Shown piece after piece: positions 46,162-61,611 of a stretch of 64,000 nt of DNA. The position numbers were made by a program, and so were the translations under genes. Origin of the DNA: Lactobacillus pasteurii DSM 23907 = CRBIP 24.76 (GTDB taxonomy: Bacteria > Bacillota > Bacilli > Lactobacillales > Lactobacillaceae); the NCBI RefSeq assembly GCF_000297025.1, contig NZ_CAKD01000013.1, positions 1 to 64,000 of the forward strand, written 5' to 3'. Each line of letters opens with the position of its first letter. Position 1 is the stretch's first letter. Below the pieces are notes generated by a model. That model made no database searches. It was not told the DNA's origin and saw only the letters and a program-made list of their open reading frames with translations.

Positions 46162-47088
46162 TTACAATTCGATTGATGCCAAAGCTTCAGCCATCTTGTC
46201 AGCTGAGAATTGCATCTTGGCTTGTTCTTGATCTGTCAAAGGTGTTTGGATTACTTCTACGATTCCACGACCATCAATTACGGCAGGAGTACCCAAGTAC
46301 AAGTTATGCTTAATACCATATTCGCCATCAATAGGAGCGGAAACAGGCAAGCAGATTGCCTTATTTTCAAGAATTGACTTAACGATTTGCGTCAACATCA
46401 TAGCTACACCGTAGTAAGTAGCTCCCTTGTTAGCGATAATCTTGCCACCCTTTTTGCGAATTTCGGTTTCAATTTCTTCGAGTACTTCATCAGTCAATTC
46501 TTCAAAAGAACGCAATGGCTTATCGCCAATCATAGCTTCTTGAAAGTTTTCAAAGGAAGTATCGCCGTGTTCACCCAAAACCATGGCATAAACATCTGTA
46601 ACTGGTACATTCAAGCGCTTAGAAATTTCTACGCGCAAACGCATAGAGTCTAATGAAGTTCCTGTACCAATTACTCTGCTCTTAGGAAAGCCTGAGAGCT
46701 TTTGGGTTAAAGTAGTCAAAATGTCCACTGGGTTAGCGGATACAACGAAAACGCCTTTAAAGCCTGAATCAACTACTGGCTTGACAATGCTTTGCAAAAT
46801 CTTGACATTCTTAGCAATCAAGTCTAAACGAGTTTCGCCAGGTTTTCTTGGAACACCGGCAGTAATTACGCAGACATCTGCATCGCCAGCTTCTGAATAC
46901 TCGCCAGTACGAACTTTGGTATTACCAGTAAAAGGAGTAATATCTTCAATATCAAGCGTATCGCCAAAGGCTCTATCCTTTGCAACATCGCAAATAACCA
47001 ATTCATCTACTTGTACATTTTGTAACAAATCATTAGCGAAGGTTGATCCAACAGCACCATCGCCGACTAAAAATACTTTTCTTCCCAT
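46162..47088 (-). CDS. ldh: L-lactate dehydrogenase
   Basis: A 308-residue NAD-dependent lactate/malate dehydrogenase family enzyme that regenerates NAD+ by reducing pyruvate. N-terminal VGDGAVGSTFA binds NAD, ITAGVPRKPGETR carries the substrate-loop Gln/Arg region, SLDSMRLR (about 147-154) the substrate arginine, and GEHGDTSF (about 172-179) the catalytic His. The overall sequence is divergent from the main Lactobacillus LDH (no allosteric helix text that I recognise), so it may be one of several copies or an L-2-hydroxyisocaproate-type enzyme. A cre site overlaps its promoter. Confidence 0.85.
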   Translation of the reverse strand: MGRKVFLVGDGAVGSTFANDLLQNVQVDELVICDVAKDRAFGDTLDIEDITPFTGNTKVRTGEYSEAGDADVCVITAGVPRKPGETRLDLIAKNVKILQSIVKPVVDSGFKGVFVVSANPVDILTTLTQKLSGFPKSRVIGTGTSLDSMRLRVEISKRLNVPVTDVYAMVLGEHGDTSFENFQEAMIGDKPLRSFEELTDEVLEEIETEIRKKGGKIIANKGATYYGVAMMLTQIVKSILENKAICLPVSAPIDGEYGIKHNLYLGTPAVIDGRGIVEVIQTPLTDQEQAKMQFSADKMAEALASIEL

Positions 47089-47113
47089 AAAGAAGTCCTT
47101 TCAATTATCAATT

Positions 47114-47127
47114 TGTTTACGCTTACA
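47114..47127 (-). promoter_or_regulatory. cre-like site of ldh
   Basis: On the minus strand it reads TGTAAGCGTAAACA, one mismatch from the CcpA consensus, 26 bp before the ldh start codon. Confidence 0.55.
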
Positions 47128-47150
47128 CAAGTATTTTACTCTTTTTTTAA

Positions 47151-49411: not shown

Positions 49412-50494
49412 TTATTTCAGTTCCTCTAGCTTGTAGCCACTGTCTTTAAAGAGTTTAAATTTATCTTTTAAGCCACTAGTAACATAGACTTTGCGGTCTC
49501 TGGTAATAAAGATCGCATCTGTGCCTTTTTTAGCTTCAATGTACTGATAGCCCTTTTTCAAGCCTTTATCAAAAGTTGCCGTCGACAAGGCATCCCCATC
49601 GACCGAATTCTTAGTAATGATTGAAACACCCATCAAATTATTTTGGAAAGGATAACCCGTTTTGGGATTCATCAAGTGGCTATAAACCGTCTTGCCAACC
49701 TTCAGATAGCGCTCATAAATCCCAGAAGTTACGATCGTCTTATTCATTCCAGGTAAAGAACCAATCGCTGTTCCGCGACTTCTCTTAGGATCTTGAATAC
49801 CCACAGTCCAGTTGCTGTGGTTAGTAGGCGAAACTCCAAGAACATAGACATTTCCGCCTAGGTCAATAATTGCGCTAGTTACCCCATCTTTTTGCAAGAC
49901 TTGCTTAACTTGATCGGTAATAAAGCCCTTGGCGATTCCGCCCAAATCTAGCTTCATGCCCTTTTTCTTAAGGTAAACTGTTTGCTTATCAGCATTTAAA
50001 ACCACCTGATGGTAGTCAACTAATGGCAAGCGAGCAGAAATTTCCTTTTGACTTGGCTTTCTTGCATCTGGAAAACCAATTCGCCATAGACTAGTGATCG
50101 GTCCAATTGCCATATCAAAGGAATCATCAGAATTTTGACTGTAGTAATAAGCCTTTTGACACAAGTCAAAGACGTCTTTTGAAACTTTGACAGGTTTAAT
50201 TCCCGCTTGAGCGTTGATTTTGTCGACTTCGCTTCCCTTTTGGTTGACCGTTATTTTGTCAGCTAATTCTTTAATTCGATCAAAGCCATCTTCTAGCGCC
50301 TTACTCTTTTTCTTATTGTAGATTTTAATCGTGCAGACCGTTCCCATTAAAAATTGCGTATCCTCAGTTGGGGTGGTCGTTAATTGCGTTTTTGGCTCGG
50401 CTTCTTTTTTGCTTTGCGTACTGCAGGCGCTCATGGGCACAACGAGCATCAATACTAGCAAGATAGTTAGAAATATTTTGCTTCTTTGCTTCAT
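49412..50494 (-). CDS. apbE: FAD:protein FMN transferase (ApbE/FmnB type), lipoprotein
   Basis: A 360-residue exported lipoprotein (lipobox MSAC about 21-24) that attaches FMN to a Thr of target proteins using FAD and Mg2+. Family marks are LDLGGIAKGFITDQV, IDLGGNVYVLG and the metal/FAD site DGDALSTATF near the C-terminus. It lies directly downstream of the PplA-like gene, the obvious substrate. In Listeria the homologue is FmnB of the EET locus. ATG at 50494 is chosen for its AAGGAAAG site; the frame upstream would hide the signal peptide. Confidence 0.92.
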   Translation of the reverse strand: MKQRSKIFLTILLVLMLVVPMSACSTQSKKEAEPKTQLTTTPTEDTQFLMGTVCTIKIYNKKKSKALEDGFDRIKELADKITVNQKGSEVDKINAQAGIKPVKVSKDVFDLCQKAYYYSQNSDDSFDMAIGPITSLWRIGFPDARKPSQKEISARLPLVDYHQVVLNADKQTVYLKKKGMKLDLGGIAKGFITDQVKQVLQKDGVTSAIIDLGGNVYVLGVSPTNHSNWTVGIQDPKRSRGTAIGSLPGMNKTIVTSGIYERYLKVGKTVYSHLMNPKTGYPFQNNLMGVSIITKNSVDGDALSTATFDKGLKKGYQYIEAKKGTDAIFITRDRKVYVTSGLKDKFKLFKDSGYKLEELK

Positions 50495-50571
50495 TTTTCT
50501 TTCCTTATAAAAGTTGCGTGCGGCAACTGCCCCACGCAACTATTCTTTATTAAACTCTCTAGAAAATCAAA

Positions 50572-51504
50572 CTATTCCTTAGTTACAATGTTGTCGACAA
50601 TAATGGTCTTAGTGTCGCCTTTTTGAGCAGCATTCATTAATTGTTCAACATATGAAATAAAGTCGTTTGAGGAATGAGTAGCACCTGAAACTACTTGAAC
50701 CTTTTCCATGTTGCCCTTAGCATCCATGAATTCCTTAGCTAACTTAGGAATGTATTCCTTTGGACCGACGCCATTAACCTTCTTCATGGCCTTTTCATAC
50801 TTAGCATCCTTAGTCTTAGACATACCATCTTTGTTGATTTGATCGTACTTCAAGTCGGCAACTTTACCCTTCTTGACTACTAAAGTGAAGACTTGACGAT
50901 AACCGTTGTAGTAGTTCTTTTGTTCAAGCTTGTAAGTACCATCCTTCATTGGCTTATTGTTGTTGATATGGATGGTGTCAGTGTCACCCTTTTGAGCAGC
51001 TTGAACTAATTGGTTGATGTAGTTTCTCATAGTCAAAGTTGAGCTAGTTGCACCTGAAACTACTTGAACGCCAGATGAGTTGCTGCCGTTGTCTGCAAAT
51101 TCCTTAGCTAACTTAGGAATGTATTCCTTTGGTCCAATCTTGACGAACTTCTTCATTTGCTTTTCGTAAGCAGCATCATCAGCCTTAGACTTGCCATCCT
51201 TATTAACATTGTCATATGAAGTCTTGGTAATCTTGCCATCCTTGACAGTCATTGACATTACAACCTTGTAGCCGTTGTAGTAGTTGTCTTCTTCAAGCTT
51301 GTAAGTACCATCCTTAAGATCTGCACCGGCAATCTTCTTAACATTAGTGGTCTTAGCTTTTTCTGATGAAGTCTTCTTGCTAGTTTGACTAGTCTTTGCA
51401 GAAGAATCTGAGCCACTCTTTGACGCAGTAGTTGAACATGCTCCTAGCATCATAGCTGATAAAGCGATAACTGATGCACTATACAATATGTTTTTTGCTT
51501 TCAT
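50572..51504 (-). CDS. pplA: PplA-like lipoprotein with two FMN-binding repeats
   Basis: A 310-residue extracellular lipoprotein (lipobox LGAC, 20-23). After a Ser/Thr/Lys linker come two copies of an FMN-bind-like domain, about 62-182 and 190-302, each starting DGTYKLE.YYNGY and each ending in the flavinylation-type motif VVSGATSST or VVSGATHSS. ApbE, encoded next, would add FMN to the Thr in each. In Listeria PplA carries electrons from the membrane to extracellular acceptors. It is divergent from ndh2, with the 295-bp control region between them. Gene transfer signs are not evident. Confidence 0.9.
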   Translation of the reverse strand: MKAKNILYSASVIALSAMMLGACSTTASKSGSDSSAKTSQTSKKTSSEKAKTTNVKKIAGADLKDGTYKLEEDNYYNGYKVVMSMTVKDGKITKTSYDNVNKDGKSKADDAAYEKQMKKFVKIGPKEYIPKLAKEFADNGSNSSGVQVVSGATSSTLTMRNYINQLVQAAQKGDTDTIHINNNKPMKDGTYKLEQKNYYNGYRQVFTLVVKKGKVADLKYDQINKDGMSKTKDAKYEKAMKKVNGVGPKEYIPKLAKEFMDAKGNMEKVQVVSGATHSSNDFISYVEQLMNAAQKGDTKTIIVDNIVTKE

Positions 51505-51539
51505 AATTTAAACATCCCTATCCTAACATTACTAAAAAT

Positions 51540-51555
51540 TACACATTATTGTGTA
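51540..51555. promoter_or_regulatory. Palindrome in the pplA control region
   Basis: TACACATTATTGTGTA is a perfect palindrome about 36 bp upstream of the pplA start codon, which puts it near the transcription start of that gene. Confidence 0.5.
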
Positions 51556-51799
51556 CTACTTCACACATCCAAATTATAGAATAACCGTGACAGTAATGCA
51601 ATAATTAATTGCCTATTTATTCTAATTGTGTCCGCTTTCTATTAGTTTTGAATGAATTCTATAATCATTACCTCATTTGATATATTGTGAAAAATATTGC
51701 TGATTATCCTTTATTAAAGCTAGTAGCTTTTGTATAATAAGAGTGTGTCTTATATCAAAATGAGTAAGAAAAGTTTTGACTTAAAGAGGGGATGGGCAA
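51556..51799 (+). promoter_or_regulatory. Divergent promoter region of the EET locus
   Basis: TATAAT (51733-51738) about 60 bp before the ndh2 start codon is the best -10 for the rightward EET operon; the -35 is weak. A CcpA-like GTCCGCTTTC (51627-51636) is seen. No small gene is visible. Confidence 0.5.
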
Positions 51800-53698
51800 A
51801 TGACCCAAACAAATATTGTTATCGTCGGTGGTGGCTTTGGCGGTCTATATACTGCTAAGCACCTCGCAAAGAAGTTAAAGAAGAATAAGGATGTCAAAAT
51901 TACTCTAGTGGACAAAAACCCACATATGACTATGATGACTTCCTTACATGAAGTAGCGGCAAACCGTGTTCAAGCTAACAGTCTTAAGTATGATTTGCAA
52001 CGTCTATTTTCACGTAGAAAGAACGTTGATGTCGTAACTGACGAAATTACTAAGATTGATCAAGAAAAGAAGCTAGTTGTTGGTAAATATGGCTCTTATC
52101 CATATGACTACACTGTTTTAGCAATTGGTTCTCAGCCAAATGATTTTGGCACTCCTGGCGTCAAGGAACATGGCTTTACTTTAGGTAGCCTTGATGATGC
52201 CGAAAAGTTGCGCGACCATATTGACTTGATGGTTCACTTAGGTGCTAGAGAACGCGACCCAGAAAAGAGAAAGCAATACTTGAACTTCGTAATCGTAGGT
52301 ACTGGCTTTACTGGAACTGAAATGGCTGGTGAACTTAATTCCTGGCGTCCAGAATTAGCTAAGAAATACAACTTAGATGCTGACGAAATCAAGATCACTA
52401 TGATGGAAATGGCACCAACTGTCATGAACATGCTTGACCGTGCAGATGCTGCTAAAGCACAAGGCTACATGGAAAAGCATGGCGTAGATATCCGCGTCAA
52501 CACTGGGGTTGTCGGCGTTCATGAAGACTACGTCGACTTAAAAGACGGCTCAACTTTCCCAACTAGAACCTTGATTTGGACAGCCGGCGTTAAGGCGGTT
52601 GATTCAGCTAAGGACTTTGGTTTTGAAACTGCTAGAGCTGGTAGAATCGTAGTTAATGAATATTCTCAATTGCCAAATGATCCACACGTTTATGTGATCG
52701 GTGACGTGGCAATGTACGATTCTAATGGTTCTGGTCGTGGTGAGCCACAAGTTGTTCAAGGAGCAGAGTCTGCCGGTAAATGCGCCTTTAAGAACATTTT
52801 GGCCCAAATCAACGGTGGCGAGCCTGTCAAGTTCAAGGGTACTTATTCTGGATTCATGGTTTCAGTCGGGCCTGCTTGGGGTGTTGCCTCATTAGTCAAC
52901 ACTTTCCACTTGAGCGGATTCTTCGCTATCTTGATGAAAGATATGGTGGACATGATCTACCTAATCCAAATCTACTCAGCTTACTACCTCTTCCACTACA
53001 TTATGGATGAATGGTTCAGAATTAAGCGTCCAACCTTATGGCGTGGCAACCTTAACCGCTACGGCAATGTATTATGGACAGTACCACTAAGAATTTTCCT
53101 TGGTATGATGTGGCTAGTTGACTGCTGGTACAAAGTACAAGGCTCTGGTTCTTGGTTCAGCAACAAATTGCAGCTCCACTTCCCATGGCTTGTGCAAGCT
53201 GCAACTAGTGGTGCAAGCAACAAGGCTGCTGCTACATCAGCTGCTTCAGGCAAAGCTGCCTCTACCGCAGCTGCTGCAGCAAGATTCTCATTCAACTATG
53301 ACTACGGTCATTCACCAATGCCTGTCTTTGACCAAATGCCTAGTTGGGTACAGTCAATGACCAAGGTGGTTATTCCAAATAAGGAAACTGCCCTATTTGC
53401 ACAAAAGTTCATGACTTGCTTTGAAATTTTACTAGGCGTTTTGCTAGTTATCGGCCTTTGCACTTGGTTTGCTGGTGCAATGAGCGCCATCTTCGTTGCT
53501 ATTTTCTGCTTGTCAGGAATGAACTACTGGGTAAATGTTTGGATGATCTTCGCCGCTATTGCTGTTATGAACGGTTCTGGCCGTGCATTTGGATTAGATA
53601 TGTGGTTTGTCCCATGGCTTGAAAAGACTCTAGGCAAGGCAAGATATGGTATTCTGCGGCCGATCTATTATGTCGACAAGAACGGTATTAAGAATTAA
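51800..53698 (+). CDS. ndh2: Type II NADH dehydrogenase with membrane domain (Ndh2)
   Basis: A 632-residue flavoprotein that moves electrons from NADH into the membrane quinone pool for EET. The first 400 residues are NDH-2: FAD site VIVGGGFGGLYTAKHL (about 6-21), NAD site FVIVGTGFTGTEMAGEL (about 159-175), and VIGDVAMYD (about 300). Then follow about five membrane spans as in Listeria Ndh2, interrupted by an Ala/Ser/Thr-rich insertion (about 470-500). This extended form is specific to EET loci. It starts the rightward operon; GAGGGG ribosome site. Confidence 0.92.
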   Translation: MTQTNIVIVGGGFGGLYTAKHLAKKLKKNKDVKITLVDKNPHMTMMTSLHEVAANRVQANSLKYDLQRLFSRRKNVDVVTDEITKIDQEKKLVVGKYGSYPYDYTVLAIGSQPNDFGTPGVKEHGFTLGSLDDAEKLRDHIDLMVHLGARERDPEKRKQYLNFVIVGTGFTGTEMAGELNSWRPELAKKYNLDADEIKITMMEMAPTVMNMLDRADAAKAQGYMEKHGVDIRVNTGVVGVHEDYVDLKDGSTFPTRTLIWTAGVKAVDSAKDFGFETARAGRIVVNEYSQLPNDPHVYVIGDVAMYDSNGSGRGEPQVVQGAESAGKCAFKNILAQINGGEPVKFKGTYSGFMVSVGPAWGVASLVNTFHLSGFFAILMKDMVDMIYLIQIYSAYYLFHYIMDEWFRIKRPTLWRGNLNRYGNVLWTVPLRIFLGMMWLVDCWYKVQGSGSWFSNKLQLHFPWLVQAATSGASNKAAATSAASGKAASTAAAAARFSFNYDYGHSPMPVFDQMPSWVQSMTKVVIPNKETALFAQKFMTCFEILLGVLLVIGLCTWFAGAMSAIFVAIFCLSGMNYWVNVWMIFAAIAVMNGSGRAFGLDMWFVPWLEKTLGKARYGILRPIYYVDKNGIKN

Positions 53699-53710
53699 GA
53701 CTTATTCTTC

Positions 53711-53742
53711 AAACAGTCTAGGATATGATCCTGGGCTGTTTT
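53711..53742 (+). terminator. Weak internal terminator between ndh2 and eetA
   Basis: AAACAG..AGGAT / ATCCTGGGCTGTTTT stem with T4, 17 bp before eetA; probably partial. Confidence 0.45.
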
Positions 53743-53758
53743 GTATTTAGGGACCGCT

Positions 53759-54181
53759 ATGCATATACTGAAAAAACTGAAAATTGGCGACTATGTCATT
53801 ATTTTAGCCTTGCTTGTACTTAGTTTTTTTCCATTGAAATATCTCTCAAACAAGCAAGCACCAACTGATGCGAAGAAAATGCAATTATATGCAGTAATTC
53901 GTGTCAATAATCAAACTGTCAAAAAAATAAGCCTAGCTCACAATACTGTTTGGCGGTTTAATAAGGATGGCGAAGAAAATACAGTTGAAGTTAAAAATCA
54001 GCGAATTCGCGTGGTTTATGCTAACTGCAAGGACCAATTGTGCGTCAAGCAGGGATGGAAAGATTCTGCTGGACAAACAATCGTCTGTCTTCCCCATAAA
54101 TTTTTGATAGAAATTAAGAATGGAGATAAATCAAAAGATTCTTCAAACAAGAAATTTGATCACACATTAGTTAATCCATGA
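53759..54181 (+). CDS. eetA: EetA-like NusG-domain-II membrane protein
   Basis: A 140-residue protein with one N-terminal span (about 13-30) and an extracellular NusG-domain-II-like segment (about 50-120), including VVYANCKDQLCVKQGWKDSAGQTIVCLPHK with three conserved cysteines. It is the EetA component of the Listeria-type EET apparatus; its exact job is not known. ATG at 53759 has AGGGA 6-7 bp upstream; the longer frame from TTG at 53741 lacks a ribosome site. It overlaps the eetB start by four bases (ATGA). Confidence 0.88.
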   Translation: MHILKKLKIGDYVIILALLVLSFFPLKYLSNKQAPTDAKKMQLYAVIRVNNQTVKKISLAHNTVWRFNKDGEENTVEVKNQRIRVVYANCKDQLCVKQGWKDSAGQTIVCLPHKFLIEIKNGDKSKDSSNKKFDHTLVNP

Positions 54182-54732
54182 TTCAAAATAATAAAGAACT
54201 CGAAAGATATGTCTTTGTTGGCATTTTGTGTGCCCAAGGAATAATTATCGGATTATTTGAACAAAGCTTTCCACCTATTTTTGCCTTTGCACCCGGAGCC
54301 AAATTAGGACTAACTAATATCATCACTCTACTGGCGCTAATAATTCTACCTTTTAGAGATTGCCTCTTGCTGACCTTCCTTCGGGTCACAATTACAGCAT
54401 TAATTTCAGGTGGAGTTTCAACTTTTATCTATGCTGCAACTGGCGCCTTTTTAAGCCTGTTTTTGATGAAGTTATTCCTATTTGCCTACCCCAAATTTGT
54501 GAGTCTAATCGGAGTATCCGTAATCGGTGGCGTTAGTCACAACTTTGGTCAATTGCTAATCGCCTCGCTAATTGCTCAAAGCAAGTATCTGTTGCTATAT
54601 TTGCCTATTTTAACGCTTTCGGGCATTATAGCTGGGATCTTAGTTGGAACCGGCGTTAGCTATTTATTGCGCTACGTGAAGGCATTATCGTTTGTTCAAA
54701 AAAATTTGCTCATTAACAGAAAGGTAAATTAA
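54178..54732 (+). CDS. eetB: EetB-like membrane protein (Gx transporter family)
   Basis: A 184-residue integral membrane protein with five or six spans, of the family once annotated as heptaprenyl diphosphate synthase component I, now grouped with substrate-specific transport components. GAKLGLTNIITLLALIIL (about 39-56) and the GVSHNFGQL segment are typical. It is EetB of the EET locus, needed for electron transfer in Listeria, perhaps by placing the quinone or flavin. Coupled to eetA (ATGA) and to the synthase gene (TAATG). Confidence 0.88.
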   Translation: MIQNNKELERYVFVGILCAQGIIIGLFEQSFPPIFAFAPGAKLGLTNIITLLALIILPFRDCLLLTFLRVTITALISGGVSTFIYAATGAFLSLFLMKLFLFAYPKFVSLIGVSVIGGVSHNFGQLLIASLIAQSKYLLLYLPILTLSGIIAGILVGTGVSYLLRYVKALSFVQKNLLINRKVN

Positions 54733-55718
54733 TGCAAGAATTTGCATACTGGCAGGACATGCCAGCTTTGAAAAAGAATTTAGAAAAGGTCCAAGAGATC
54801 ATTCTTGACCAGATAAAAATGGCTGACGGCGACCTGGGAGAAGCTATTCGCTATAACTTTGCCGTAGCTGGAAAAGAATTGCGACCTGCTTTTGTGATTC
54901 TATTTGGCGAAATGGGAAGAAAAAACAAAGGCCAGCGAATTTTAAACATTGCTAGCTCCGTTGAAATCTTGCATAATGCGACCTTGATTCATGATGATAT
55001 TATCGATGAATCTCCCATGAGACGTGGTCGCAGTTCGATTCAAGCAAAATATGGCAAGCATATCGCCCTTTACGCTGGAGACTACTTGTTTGCTCTTTCA
55101 TTGCAACTACTCTGCCAAAATACTTCCAAAATTACCAGCCTAAGAATCAACAGCAAGGCTATGCAGGAAATTTTGTCTGGCGAAACCTCTCAATTTAGCA
55201 ACGAATACAACCTAGAAATTACAACTGAACAATATTTGTTGCAAATTAAGGGTAAGACCGCTATTCTCTTTGCCTATGCTTGCTATATCGGAGCGATTGA
55301 AGGTGGATTGCCACTATCATTGGCACGCAAGGCACAGAAGTTTGGCGAATTGGTTGGTTCAGCCTTTCAATTACGGGATGATATTTTGGACTATACGTCT
55401 AATAGCGATGTCTTTAAAAAGCCCGTCTTGCAAGATGTCGTTAATGGCGTTTATTCTGGGCCATTGATCTTTGCCCTAGCCAAAGACAAGACGAATGAAT
55501 TACACGACTTAGTCAAAGTTGGCAAGGATCTATCTGCCGAGCAGCTGAATAGAATTGACCAGTTAGTAACTGAACTAGGTGGGATCAAGCAAGCTCAAAG
55601 CTTGGTAGAGCAATATACAAACAAAGCCTTAGCAATTTTAGAAGAAAACTTTAGCCAATACCCTGCTAGCAAGAACTTGGCTCATATTGCCAAATCTCTA
55701 CTTGAAAGACAGGTATAA
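54732..55718 (+). CDS. dmkB: Polyprenyl diphosphate synthase (DmkB type)
   Basis: A 328-residue prenyltransferase that builds the polyprenyl chain of the demethylmenaquinone used by the EET Ndh2. Both aspartate-rich motifs are present: LIHDDIIDESPMRRG (about 91-105) and FQLRDDILDY (about 209-218). It is translationally coupled to eetB. The companion DmkA, which joins the chain to dihydroxynaphthoate, and naphthoate synthesis genes are not in this window, so the cell may depend on DHNA from outside. Confidence 0.9.
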   Translation: MQEFAYWQDMPALKKNLEKVQEIILDQIKMADGDLGEAIRYNFAVAGKELRPAFVILFGEMGRKNKGQRILNIASSVEILHNATLIHDDIIDESPMRRGRSSIQAKYGKHIALYAGDYLFALSLQLLCQNTSKITSLRINSKAMQEILSGETSQFSNEYNLEITTEQYLLQIKGKTAILFAYACYIGAIEGGLPLSLARKAQKFGELVGSAFQLRDDILDYTSNSDVFKKPVLQDVVNGVYSGPLIFALAKDKTNELHDLVKVGKDLSAEQLNRIDQLVTELGGIKQAQSLVEQYTNKALAILEENFSQYPASKNLAHIAKSLLERQV

Positions 55719-57091: not shown

Positions 57092-57319
57092 ATGCAAGAA
57101 TTCACTATTGAAGAATTAGCTAAATTTGATGGTAAAGATGGTCACGAAGCTTACGTTGCTGTTGACGGCAAGGTTTATGATGTAACTGGTAACCCACATT
57201 GGCAAGGTGGTGAACACCACGGCAATCTTGCTGGTCACGACGTGACTAAGGCTTTAGAAGTTTCACCACATGGAACTCGCGTTCTTGCTGGTCTTAAACA
57301 AGTTGGCGTATTAAAATAG
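57092..57319 (+). CDS. Cytochrome b5-like heme-binding protein
   Basis: A 75-residue soluble protein that fits the cytochrome b5-like heme/steroid-binding domain: FTIEELAKFDGKDGHEAYVAVDGKVYDVT (about 4-32), then GEHHGNLAGHDVTKAL and SPHGTRVL. The first heme ligand would be in GEHHG (about 46-47) and the second in SPHG (about 60), standing in for the classical HPGG and second His. It should bind heme b and shuttle an electron in the cytoplasm. It is monocistronic between the EET and heme-import loci; GAAGGA ribosome site. Confidence 0.85.
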   Translation: MQEFTIEELAKFDGKDGHEAYVAVDGKVYDVTGNPHWQGGEHHGNLAGHDVTKALEVSPHGTRVLAGLKQVGVLK

Positions 57320-58260: not shown

Positions 58261-59019
58261 CTATAATTGCTGGAAAAACTTGCCATCTTCAGTTTCAATA
58301 ATCCGGCAATTGATATCAAAACTTTCTTTGACATTAGCCTCGGTAATTACTTCTTCAGGTAAGCCCTGGCTTTTTATTTTGCCCTGACTAAGCAAAACAA
58401 CTTGATCGCTATAGTGAAGCGCCTGATTCAAATCATGCAAAATCATACAAATAGTTAATTTGGTAGTTTGATTTAAATTTTTTAACAAGGTCAAAAATCT
58501 CATCTGAAAGTGCAAATCCAGATATGTCGTTGGCTCATCCAAGAATAAGTAACGTGGCTGCTGAGCTAAGGCTAATCCCAGCCAAACACGTTGTTGCTGA
58601 CCGCCAGAAAGCTGCGAGACCAACTTATTTTTAACTGGTTCAAGTTCCAAATATTCAATCACTTGCTTGATTATTTCATCTTGATTATCGATTTCTTTAG
58701 TTAAGCCGACATATGGCAATCTGCCCATTTTGATTAGCTCTTCAACCGTCAAATCATCATAGAGATCATTTTTTTGATGAACAATTGCAACTTCTTTGGC
58801 AAAGTCGCGAGCCGGATATTGCCAGATGTCTTTATCTGCCAATAAAACTTGACCAGAATCCGCTTTTTGCGACCTGGTGAGCAATTTAAACAAAGTTGAT
58901 TTGCCTGAACCATTGGGGCCAATTAGCGTGGTGATTTGATGTTCAGCTAGCTTGATCGAGACATCATCGAGGATTTGCTTTTTACCATATGAAAAATTGA
59001 TATTTTTAGCTTCTAACAT
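58261..59019 (-). CDS. Heme/iron ABC importer ATPase
   Basis: A 252-residue FecE/FhuC-type ATPase: IGPNGSGKST (Walker A, about 33-42), QLSGGQQQRVWLGLALAQQP (signature), YLFLDEPTTYLD (Walker B). It powers the FecCD-type permease whose gene overlaps it by 14 bp. Position at the end of an operon starting with NEAT genes makes heme the likely cargo (IsdF-like set), although ferric siderophores use the same family. Confidence 0.9.
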   Translation of the reverse strand: MLEAKNINFSYGKKQILDDVSIKLAEHQITTLIGPNGSGKSTLFKLLTRSQKADSGQVLLADKDIWQYPARDFAKEVAIVHQKNDLYDDLTVEELIKMGRLPYVGLTKEIDNQDEIIKQVIEYLELEPVKNKLVSQLSGGQQQRVWLGLALAQQPRYLFLDEPTTYLDLHFQMRFLTLLKNLNQTTKLTICMILHDLNQALHYSDQVVLLSQGKIKSQGLPEEVITEANVKESFDINCRIIETEDGKFFQQL

Positions 59020-59938
59020 CCCTCTTACCTCGATTCATACTTAGCAAAATAACAATCATCATCGGACCACCAATAATCGCTAGCAAAGTTCCAGCCGCAA
59101 TTTCATTTGGTGGGTTAATTGTTCTTCCTAGCGTATCGACAAACAGCATCAACCAGCTCCCTGCCATAATCGAAAAAGTTGTCAATTTTTGATAATCATG
59201 GCCTAAAATAGCTCTTCCAACTTGTGGCACGATAATGCCAATAAAGGCTAATACCCCGCAACATGCTGTCGTCACACCTGCCAAAAAGACCGCTAAAAGC
59301 AAAAGAACTAAACGAATAAAACTCGCCGAAATTCCTAATGAACTCAATTGTTCATCGCTAACCTTCAGATAATTAGCCCAATTAGCTAAAACAAGTGCTA
59401 TGATCAAGCCGATGATTCCACTAATAGTCAAAATCAAAGTCGAGCTCCAACTGCTAGTCGCTAAGCTGCTGCTAGCCTTGCTGGTGACGACTTCTGCAAT
59501 TCCAGTAAATACTGCATTGATAGCCACACCAACGATAATCAATCTAAATGGGTCAAAGTATTTTTGAAATTGAATCAATAGCACAAACGCAACTAAAGCG
59601 CCTAAAACAGCAGCTAAAGTTTTACCAATGAAAAACGCCGGAAAGAGAATGCCAAACAAAGTCTGAAATAAACCAGCGGCTGACGATACCCCCATAATAC
59701 CCGGATCAGCTATTGGATTGCGAAAAGCGGCTTGAAAAAACAAACCGCTAATCGACAAGGCTGCGCCAGCTACTAAGGCAGAAACAATTCTTGGCAATCT
59801 AATATTCAATAGCAAATTCAAATCCGTCTGACTCATACTAGTTAGTGAAATATTGCTTGCTCCGTGACTTAGCGCAAAATAAAGCGTTGCTATGATCATC
59901 ATAGTCAACAAGCTATAGGTTATTACCGCTTTTTTCAT
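59006..59938 (-). CDS. Heme/iron ABC importer permease (FecCD family)
   Basis: A 310-residue permease with about nine or ten spans. Typical blocks are LPRIVSALVAGAALSISGLFFQ with NPIADPGIMGVSSAAGL (about 73-90), and GVLAFIGIIVPQVGRAILGHDYQ, the coupling loop to the ATPase. Works as a dimer with the ATPase. Starts within two bases after the stop of the binding-protein gene, and the ribosome site GGAGAA lies in that gene. Confidence 0.92.
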   Translation of the reverse strand: MKKAVITYSLLTMMIIATLYFALSHGASNISLTSMSQTDLNLLLNIRLPRIVSALVAGAALSISGLFFQAAFRNPIADPGIMGVSSAAGLFQTLFGILFPAFFIGKTLAAVLGALVAFVLLIQFQKYFDPFRLIIVGVAINAVFTGIAEVVTSKASSSLATSSWSSTLILTISGIIGLIIALVLANWANYLKVSDEQLSSLGISASFIRLVLLLLAVFLAGVTTACCGVLAFIGIIVPQVGRAILGHDYQKLTTFSIMAGSWLMLFVDTLGRTINPPNEIAAGTLLAIIGGPMMIVILLSMNRGKRDVRS

Positions 59939-59939
59939 C

Positions 59940-60821
59940 TTAATTCTCCGGATATAGTAGCTGACTTAATTTCTTAATTGCCTTGGAAACTTCCATATTC
60001 GCAGAAGCGTTAAAAGTTGGTTGCTTTAAATCATAAACTTTTCCTTCTTTAACCGCCTTCATCTTTTTCCAAACAGGATTACTCTTAAATTCCTGCTTAA
60101 ACTGCGGAATCGTTACCTTTGGCATGGCATGTGACAAGCGCAAGATCAGATCCGGGTTTTGCTTAGCTAATGATTCATTGCTTGGATTTAAGTAAATTTG
60201 ACTCTTAGATTTATATAAATTTTCCCCGCCAGCTAAACGTACCAAGTCGCCTAAGTAAGACTTATTAGTCAAAATTAAATATCCTGCACCAGGTAATCCC
60301 ATCAAAATCAACACCTTTGGTTTTTGACCATGGATGCGTGCTTTAGCCTTAGCTACAGCTTCATCAATTATTTTGATCTGCTGTTCGGCCTGCTTTTGAC
60401 GATAATATTCCTTGCCCAAACTAGTTAGGGTCGACTTTAAAGCAGCTACGGAATCAAGATTAAGATAAGTAACGTCAACGCTTTGTTCTTTAAAGGATTG
60501 ATCATATTGGTCTTTTAGCGTTGATACAGCGTATACCTTGGTTGGGTTGAGCGAAGCAATCTTCTCAACGCTCGGATTCATTGGATTTCCCACCTTAGGC
60601 AATTTGCGATATCTTGCTGGCAAGCTAGCTTCAGTTGAAGGTACGCCTGCCAAATTAACATCCAACTTATCAAAAATTTCCGTAATAGCTACCGTAGTAG
60701 CGACGATTTTTTCATTATTAGCAACTTTTTGATCGATATATTTCTTGCCAAAAAATGCTCCCGCAATAACTAGCCCTAACAAAACGACTAGTCCGATAAT
60801 TAATCCACTATGCTTCTTCAT
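59940..60821 (-). CDS. Heme/iron-binding protein with membrane anchor (IsdE-like)
   Basis: A 293-residue cluster-A-III-type (TroA/FecB fold) binding protein; PSTEASLPARYRKLPKVGNPMNPSVEKIASLNPTKVYA (about 60-100) is the usual lobe-one text. Unlike IsdE it has no lipobox cysteine: an uncleaved N-terminal span (GLIIGLVVLLGLVIAGAFFG, 5-24) anchors it. ATG at 60821 is chosen with GAGGAAAGC upstream; the longer frame to 60860 overlaps the previous gene. Operon place between NEAT genes and permease points to heme. No clear heme ligand can be read. Confidence 0.82.
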   Translation of the reverse strand: MKKHSGLIIGLVVLLGLVIAGAFFGKKYIDQKVANNEKIVATTVAITEIFDKLDVNLAGVPSTEASLPARYRKLPKVGNPMNPSVEKIASLNPTKVYAVSTLKDQYDQSFKEQSVDVTYLNLDSVAALKSTLTSLGKEYYRQKQAEQQIKIIDEAVAKAKARIHGQKPKVLILMGLPGAGYLILTNKSYLGDLVRLAGGENLYKSKSQIYLNPSNESLAKQNPDLILRLSHAMPKVTIPQFKQEFKSNPVWKKMKAVKEGKVYDLKQPTFNASANMEVSKAIKKLSQLLYPEN

Positions 60822-61611
60822 GCTTTCCTCTTGAACCTGCCGGCTTAATTCCAAAAACAAAGAACACCGCCGCTACAATTAGAATTATTAGGTTCAAAAT
60901 ACCTCCCAAAATTAAGTAGTAAAACATCTTCTGATTTTTTTCGTTAGCTTGACGATTTTTTAAATTCTGTTTAGCTTGCGCTTCTGCCAAGACCATTTGC
61001 CGTTTCTTGACATCCTTTGATTGCTTTTTGGCTTGAGCCATGATGGCTTCTAGTTGCTTATCATTTGGACTAGCTGCTTGACTCGTTTGCTTTTTAGTGC
61101 TGGATTGTTTGACTGGAGTAACTACTTTCTTAGCAGTTTTTGTTTGACTCTTACTACTATTAGCGCTAGTAGTTAGCTTAGGCAAAGCAGTTTGATCAAA
61201 CTTGAAGCTTACCATATGAGTAGCCTTGTAGATATTTGGTACATCAATCTTTATCTGACTTGAAATCATTCGATTTAAGTTAGAGCTTCTAAAGGCGTAG
61301 CGATAATCATAGTCAGACCCATGCCGAGTCTTAGTCACATTCATCGGACTTTGGCCGTCAATGCTGATAACTTTAACTGGCCAAGGACTCAAGCTCTTCT
61401 TAGTCCGAATAGTCATTGTCACTAAATATTCCCCACCAGAAACCTCAACTTGAGCTGGAGTAACGTAGTAAGTCGTAGCCATTGAAGTTTCTTTAGTGTG
61501 ATATTTGTAAGTATGATAGTTAACATCCGCAGCCATTGTCTGCTTAGAAAATAGCGCTAGCCCCGTCGCCATCACAGCGAGGGTCAAAATGTACTTTAAA
61601 ACTTTCTTCAT
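60808..61611 (-). CDS. Membrane-anchored NEAT-domain protein
   Basis: A 267-residue surface protein: signal peptide (1-27, ending TMAAD), one NEAT domain (about 30-140), a Ser/Thr/Lys and coiled linker (about 145-225) and a C-terminal span (about 230-255) with a short tail. In the last NEAT strands, PNIYKATHMVSFKFD keeps the Tyr of the YxxxY heme motif while the second Tyr is His. It probably takes heme and hands it to the binding protein encoded next, with which it overlaps by 14 bp. ATG follows AAAGGATAAAG and overlaps the upstream stop. Confidence 0.85.
   Translation of the reverse strand: MKKVLKYILTLAVMATGLALFSKQTMAADVNYHTYKYHTKETSMATTYYVTPAQVEVSGGEYLVTMTIRTKKSLSPWPVKVISIDGQSPMNVTKTRHGSDYDYRYAFRSSNLNRMISSQIKIDVPNIYKATHMVSFKFDQTALPKLTTSANSSKSQTKTAKKVVTPVKQSSTKKQTSQAASPNDKQLEAIMAQAKKQSKDVKKRQMVLAEAQAKQNLKNRQANEKNQKMFYYLILGGILNLIILIVAAVFFVFGIKPAGSRGKHEEA

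Follow-up and report, generated by a model that had tools for sequence, protein, structure and literature searches.

Closest described systems

The closest described systems for flavin-based extracellular electron transfer (FLEET; the process itself is abbreviated EET) are the loci of Listeria monocytogenes (lmo2634 to lmo2641, PMC8837199) and Lactiplantibacillus plantarum (PMC8837199, PMC9888254, PMC10746273). The present analysis concerns positions 49412-55718 of a 64,000-nucleotide stretch of Lactobacillus pasteurii DSM 23907 (contig NZ_CAKD01000013.1; this whole stretch is called the window). These positions very probably hold a FLEET locus like those of Listeria and L. plantarum, in which the six core genes are intact; the host is a Lactobacillus near Lactobacillus gigeriorum, and the prenyltransferase DmkA is probably located elsewhere in its genome.

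In L. plantarum, Ndh2 and PplA are required for EET that depends on 1,4-dihydroxy-2-naphthoic acid (DHNA), and EetA/B for some assays (PMC9888254). In Listeria, EetB is the substrate-binding unit of an exporter of flavin adenine dinucleotide (FAD), both EetB and FmnA are needed to export flavins for flavinylation, and EcfT is suggested not to replace FmnA (PMC9973259). According to a 2022 survey, 19 of 94 lactobacilli species carry the full locus, and these are homofermentative (PMC8837199). The EET system is of an already published, known kind; a conserved promoter dyad, treated below, is one new element.

Gene content and integrity

The locus is divergent, with fmnB/apbE and pplA on the minus strand and the remaining four genes on the plus strand:

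49412..50539, minus strand, apbE/fmnB: lipoprotein-type FAD:protein flavin mononucleotide (FMN) transferase (Pfam ApbE, 284 bits)
50572..51504, minus strand, pplA: lipoprotein with two FMN-binding repeats (NCBIfam NF041941, lipo_FMN_PplA, 440.3 bits)
51800..53698, plus strand, ndh2: type II NADH dehydrogenase with a membrane-spanning C-terminal extension (Pyr_redox_2, 172 bits)
53741..54181, plus strand, eetA: NusG domain II protein (Pfam NusG_II, 103 bits)
54178..54732, plus strand, eetB: subunit resembling the S component of energy-coupling factor (ECF) transporters, FAD exporter (PF07456, Hpre_diP_synt_I, 135 bits)
54732..55718, plus strand, dmkB: polyprenyl diphosphate synthase (Pfam polyprenyl_synt, 203 bits)

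All six open reading frames (ORFs) in 49412-55718 are open and full length, and every family match is above the Pfam cut-off. A preliminary description, made from the letters alone, had recognised ApbE, a PplA-like protein with two repeats, a membrane-extended Ndh2, EetA, EetB and DmkB in a divergent array, which the ORFs and the Pfam and NCBIfam matches bear out. It had also named a frameshift as evidence that would speak against it; inspection of the six ORFs revealed none.

The apbE ORF starts at 50539 with TTG, and an apparent in-frame ATG at 50494 gives a protein of 360 amino acids including the signal sequence; the TTG is probably an upstream extension, and the ATG the true start. The closest solved structure of ApbE is PDB 7esa, an FAD:protein FMN transferase (E 9.8e-120). 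PplA matches NF041941 over the whole model (440.3 bits against a cut-off of 325) and Pfam FMN_bind in two stretches (40.5 bits); it carries two SGAT flavinylation motifs (residues 150 and 273) and an apparent LGAC lipobox. As for Ndh2, its DoxX match is barely above the cut-off (24.3 against 23.6 bits). The EetB family PF07456 bears the Pfam name heptaprenyl diphosphate synthase component I, and the single PDB match of EetB (E 0.19) is meaningless.

When L. monocytogenes locus proteins are used as queries against 13 proteins of the window genome, the best match of each query among these 13 is the expected window protein, with identities of 55% (FmnB), 50% (PplA), 48% (EetB), 46% (Ndh2, 646 columns), 43% (EetA), and 37% (DmkB). 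The margin is small for the DmkB query, which scores 236 bits in the window and 204 bits with the genome's second prenyl synthase. Best matches at 37-55% identity, together with equal order and divergence, support the earlier statement that the set corresponds to the Listeria one. Thus, a membrane-extended ndh2 (Pyr_redox_2, DoxX, 46% to Listeria Ndh2), a PplA with two flavinylation motifs, and adjoining ApbE/FmnB, EetA, EetB, and DmkB genes in divergent order are all present.

The same proteins might in principle support flavoprotein reactions outside the cytosol that do not reduce metals or electrodes, such as those of a flavinylated reductase acting on an organic acceptor, given that ApbE substrates have many redox roles and that eetB often stands beside apbE in other bacteria (PMC9973259). 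Within the locus, however, the sole flavinylation substrate seen is PplA, which exceeds the PplA-specific cut-off, and we regard this alternative as highly unlikely.

Comparison with known loci

The L. monocytogenes locus (L135, L137) shares with the window the six genes, their order, the divergent promoter region, and the two SGAT motifs of PplA. It differs in having DmkA between fmnB and fmnA (located by tblastn), both beyond fmnB, whereas the window locus has neither; in addition, Listeria has MenF beside MenA, whereas the window genome yields no MenB or MenD match. In Enterococcus raffinosus the gene order equals that of the window locus. L. plantarum is alike in being a fermentative quinone auxotroph with ndh2 and pplA that uses exogenous DHNA, but its locus also includes DmkA, FmnA/B, and two ATPases, and ubiE occurs in its genome (PMC8837199, PMC9888254, PMC10746273). 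In contrast, the DmkA-type gene of the window genome is displaced, and no MenG/UbiE match is above the cut-off.

Seven further species (Lactobacillus gigeriorum, L. corticis, L. colini, L. hominis, L. helsingborgensis, L. melliventris, and L. kitasatonis) share the six-gene core, with ndh2 split in L. kitasatonis, and fmnA was not found in the stretches read from them. DmkA lies beyond apbE in L. helsingborgensis and L. melliventris, beyond dmkB in L. colini and L. kitasatonis, and elsewhere in L. gigeriorum, L. corticis, L. hominis, and the window genome. The nearest relative of the window Ndh2 among the 12 loci found is that of L. gigeriorum (92% identity), although the organism's own or very near genomes were possibly excluded from this comparison. 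For L. gigeriorum and electron transfer, nothing relevant was found in the open-licence literature.

Distribution and decay in the genus and family

The genus survey comprises 75 genomes, the window genome included. PplA is above the cut-off in 12 of them, which carry 13 loci, as one genome (G062) has two. At E 0.001 any PplA match is seen in 39 of the 75, and beyond the 12 there are two matches at 237-258 bits, the remainder being weak. EET-type Ndh2 (at least 859 bits) occurs in the same 12 genomes, the next match scoring 158 bits. In the wider family, PplA is above the cut-off in 26 of 201 sampled genomes. Since such PplA matches are confined to 12 of 75 genus and 26 of 201 family genomes, the distribution of the locus is sporadic.

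Several relatives carry partial or split versions. EET-type Ndh2 is lacking in both G005 (L082), where pplA is shortened and apbE split, and G002 (L081, L092), where apbE is present, pplA runs off a contig end, and the DmkA-type gene is split. In the draft genome of L. kitasatonis (G029, L073:6211-8117) ndh2 lies in two frames, while pplA, apbE, eetA, eetB, and dmkB are open; this genome belongs to the 12 with PplA above the cut-off. A lone intact DmkA-type gene, without PplA, is found in G072 (L095).

These four cases, the 63 of 75 genus genomes without PplA above the cut-off, and the failure to find FmnA would agree with a locus that is intact yet unused for EET, a decaying or conditional remnant as in relatives with broken parts. 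However, the six window genes are full length and both SGAT motifs are kept. Moreover, the window's EET-type Ndh2 is 78-92% identical to those of the 10 other genus genomes having an uninterrupted copy, which suggests constraint, and a remnant appears quite unlikely.

Prenyltransferase genes

The window is part of contig C18 of a draft genome of 1,905,398 bases (30 contigs, 99.74% complete). No UbiA match is found in this contig, and DmkA thus lies outside the locus. The preliminary description had called DmkA missing, which is correct for the window and its contig and does not extend to the genome: the genome search for UbiA-family genes that it had proposed returns two, one on C2 and one on C30, and complete absence of DmkA was rejected on the tree and genus matches described below. 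The DmkA-type gene (G000:C2:37482-38450) begins 12 bases past an ABC ATPase gene (ABC_tran, Pfam), and the gene pair preceding it resembles glnPQ by sequence reading. The gene on C30 adjoins a short NADH dehydrogenase and the second prenyl synthase, together with two genes of ABC exporter type, apparently cydCD-like; cytochrome bd subunit I (PF01654, 526 bits) lies past the latter.

In a tree of 63 UbiA proteins, the C2 protein falls within a 43-row group (support 98/96) that contains all 36 in-locus UbiA rows, Listeria DmkA included. The C30 protein clusters with six other Ndh-adjoining UbiA genes and MenA of Limosilactobacillus fermentum (100/100), on which grounds it was rejected as the EET prenyltransferase.

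According to co-occurrence, a query with the C2 protein scores at least 183 bits in 13 of 75 genomes, namely all 12 with PplA and G072, followed by 122 bits; the 183-bit line was drawn after the list was seen, and the split copy of G002 (103 and 76 bits) lies below it. By this count, every one of the 12 PplA genomes has a DmkA-type gene, against 1 of the 63 others. Within the 12, the gene is located beyond apbE in five, beyond dmkB in two (L072 and L073, directly past it), and elsewhere in five, one of these about 18 kb off on the same contig. Because it is apart from the locus in 5 of the 12, DmkA inside the locus is no strict criterion for FLEET.

Some results weigh against this assignment. 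A long-branch warning was issued for the tree, with Listeria DmkA one of the branches concerned. In the approximately unbiased (AU) test, a C2 clade joined to the respiratory MenA clade is not rejected (p 0.149); neither is one joined to the in-locus DmkA proteins of the bee-type species L. helsingborgensis and L. melliventris (p 0.181). A third AU test rejects a tree in which the 36 in-locus rows form an exclusive group (p 5e-41); this says little, because the L072 and L073 rows are close kin of displaced rows. The first of these values leaves room for the C2 gene being a second MenA, with EET using respiratory-branch quinone or free DHNA, as does the near dispensability of dmkA in L. plantarum (PMC9888254). 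Against it stand the presence of the gene in all 12 PplA genomes and in one of 63 others, its position beside dmkB in two species, and the 98/96 support for grouping with in-locus genes; a second MenA is rather unlikely. On synteny, co-occurrence, and the tree taken together, the C2 gene is probably the DmkA of the EET system.

The window-genome DmkA is only 36-37% identical to the bee-type in-locus DmkA, compared with 62-84% for ApbE, PplA, Ndh2, EetB, and DmkB and 46-53% for EetA. Since its identity is far below the 62-84% of its locus neighbours, the DmkA gene may have been replaced rather than merely moved.

UbiA-type prenyltransferases are also annotated on plasmids of Lactiplantibacillus, Lentilactobacillus, and Companilactobacillus. 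One of them, from a Lactiplantibacillus plantarum SRCM103295 plasmid (L141), stands in the tree with three genus Lactobacillus genes, apart from DmkA.

Quinone supply

MenB (TIGR01929) and MenD (TIGR00173) have no match in the window genome, and the sole MenG (PF01209) match, 19 bits over 48 positions, is below the cut-off of 20.1. Among 14 control genomes, MenB matches 11 and MenD 14, with 7 above the cut-off for each. Because MenB and MenD are without a match and MenG has none above the cut-off, DHNA probably comes from an outside source. This search of the genome for men genes had been proposed in the preliminary description, and its outcome favours the supposition made there, that the quinone comes from elsewhere, possibly as exogenous DHNA. 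Since MenG is not above the cut-off, both quinone branches, EET and respiratory, may run on demethylmenaquinone.

Flavin supply

The ECF flavin transporter genes had been described as missing. This is true of FmnA, as a Listeria FmnA query finds nothing in the window or in 12 other genus loci; it does not hold for EetB, which in Listeria is itself the FAD exporter's substrate-binding unit (PMC9973259). A genome search for RibU and EcfT, also proposed earlier, places RibU on C10 (PDB 3p5n, E 1.9e-15) and EcfT on C11 (CbiQ family, 151 bits), the latter after two ABC ATPase genes (an ECF-type pair) and before a tRNA pseudouridine synthase gene. The genome has two CbiQ genes, the canonical EcfT (50% to Listeria FmnA) and a divergent one; Listeria FmnA itself belongs to the CbiQ family (165 bits). 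EetB here may work with the single canonical EcfT and its ATPases.

FmnA is present in 10 of 26 loci of other genera, judged on the stretches read. Because the other 16 stretches are without a match too, FmnA is no strict criterion for FLEET. Seven loci of one other genus (g38; L111, L112, L114, L116, L120, L123, L125) have fmnA and two ABC ATPase genes and no UbiA in the stretch read, while 14 of 17 other-genus stretches with an in-locus UbiA have no fmnA. In 9 of the 26 (L105, L107, L109, L124, L126-L130) there is no apbE match in the stretch read, and the flavin transferase may also be displaced in these nine.

Proposed electron path

In the favoured reading, that of a working FLEET locus, Ndh2 would oxidise NADH and reduce a quinone, either exogenous DHNA or demethylmenaquinone made from DHNA via DmkA (other contig) and DmkB. 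Electrons, helped by EetA, would move to the two covalently bound FMNs of PplA, which would pass them to Fe(III), free flavin, or another outside acceptor. ApbE/FmnB would attach the FMNs using FAD exported by EetB, perhaps with the canonical EcfT and its ATPases. Every biochemical step is inferred from work on L. monocytogenes and L. plantarum, whereas the genes, their integrity, order and co-occurrence, the displaced DmkA-type gene, and the lack of MenB and MenD matches are established here.

Several points count against this reading or parts of it. The auxotrophy negative covers MenB, MenD, and MenG, with MenF, MenC, MenE, MenH, and the futalosine route outside the searches. Flavinylation could fail without external FAD, because FmnA was not found. 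In L. plantarum, deletion of dmkA or dmkB causes a minor loss of DHNA-dependent iron reduction and no loss of current (PMC9888254); since the effect is at most minor there, the DmkA step may not matter. Finally, two L. plantarum strains with all genes fail to reduce iron, and in each of them the promoter region between ndh2 and pplA carries an IS30 transposon (PMC8837199).

Promoter region

The stretch between pplA and ndh2 is 295 bases long and includes the following elements; both promoters, and the position of the dyad relative to them, come from sequence reading:

51549..51566, plus strand: dyad TTGTGTACTACTTCACAC, agreeing with the Rex operator at 12 of its 14 fixed positions
51601-51573, minus strand: apparent pplA promoter TTGCAT-17-TATAAT
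51685..51691, plus strand: TTGTGAA half-site upstream of the ndh2 promoter, its second half degenerate in the window
51710..51738, plus strand: apparent ndh2 promoter TTTATT-17-TATAAT, which the consensus scan did not report

The dyad, compared with the Rex operator consensus TTGTGAA-N4-TTCACAA, lies just downstream of the apparent pplA -10 element, where a repressor would bind. Its score is equalled by none of 300 shuffles of the promoter region, and it is the sole match with two mismatches window-wide; sites with at most three mismatches are at chance (6 observed, 7.8 expected). It is also compatible with Crp/Fnr-type sites.

Of the genus loci, 12 of 13 contain the pattern TGTG-N7-TCAC, against a shuffle mean of 0.01; of the loci from other genera, 10 of 23 do (shuffle mean 0.06). 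Promoter patterns were picked after the alignment was seen, and the shuffles ignore shared descent. Excluded from the pattern counts are L128 and L129, where pplA and ndh2 do not adjoin; L130, whose pplA match is below the threshold; L081 and L082, which lack an EET-type ndh2; and the Listeria and Enterococcus raffinosus loci. On the ndh2 side, TGTGAA occurs 75-115 bases before the ndh2 start, upstream of a TATAAT, in 13 of 13 genus loci (raw count). The fuller pattern TGTGAA-N5,6-CACTT is seen in 8 of 13, the window not among them, and in none of the 23 others. Rex is reported to be universal in 15 Lactobacillaceae genomes (PMC3616900). Rex, or a comparable redox regulator, may repress the locus through the conserved dyad, in which case the locus would be on at high NADH.

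A number of observations speak against Rex. The dyad is missing in 13 of 23 other-genus loci and in the genus locus L072, and neither the respiratory locus (L084) nor the surroundings of the displaced dmkA (L083) contain a site with at most three mismatches. In Listeria the best site is found on the ndh2 side; in Enterococcus raffinosus no site exceeds shuffles (65 of 300 as good). In L. plantarum, pplA is not differentially expressed on a polarised anode (PMC13185627), and the main text of a 2021 Listeria Rex study (PMC8389512) contains neither pplA nor lmo263 nor 'electron transfer'. No report of Rex control of EET genes was seen among the open-licence papers listed, and reports elsewhere are possible.

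Taken with the prenyltransferase results, a two-part proposal can be made tentatively, and we hold it somewhat doubtful as a whole. Its first part is that EET in Lactobacillaceae may be under direct NADH sensing, with a Rex-type operator at the pplA start site and a half-conserved one upstream of ndh2 tying expression to NADH/NAD+. Its second part is that in the genus Lactobacillus the DHNA prenyltransferase may have been freed from the locus and several times relocated or exchanged, yet retained or lost along with it; the organisms would have two quinone branches, EET and cytochrome bd, both fed by foreign DHNA.

By pattern, the promoter region in the window has no CcpA cre site, with matches in 3 of 14 regions, and a sigma-70 and terminator scan is uninformative, giving 12 promoters where shuffles give 15.3 and 8 terminators where they give 5.3 (s.d. 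2.8). A Rex-like site with three mismatches, which is chance level, lies at 47113-47130, just upstream of a lactate/malate dehydrogenase family gene (46162-47088, Ldh_1_N 137 bits).

Neighbouring genes

Genes for a heme uptake-type ABC transporter are located at 58261-60860 and start 2.5 kb past dmkB. They encode the substrate-binding protein IsdE (351 bits with NCBIfam TIGR03659, cut-off 299), a FecCD permease, and an ABC ATPase, and would suit an organism that scavenges heme and has cytochrome bd. In the interval separating these genes from the EET locus, 57092-57319 encodes a free-standing cytochrome b5-like heme-binding domain protein of 75 amino acids (Pfam Cyt-b5, 39.5 bits).

Implications

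With this locus, a Lactobacillus sensu stricto joins the fermenters that can probably discharge electrons outside the cell, and its probable dependence on DHNA from neighbours is a concrete cross-feeding prediction. As for genome surveys, scoring EET by the contiguous locus alone can miss DmkA. The conserved promoter dyad, in turn, offers a direct handle on how lactic acid bacteria switch EET on.

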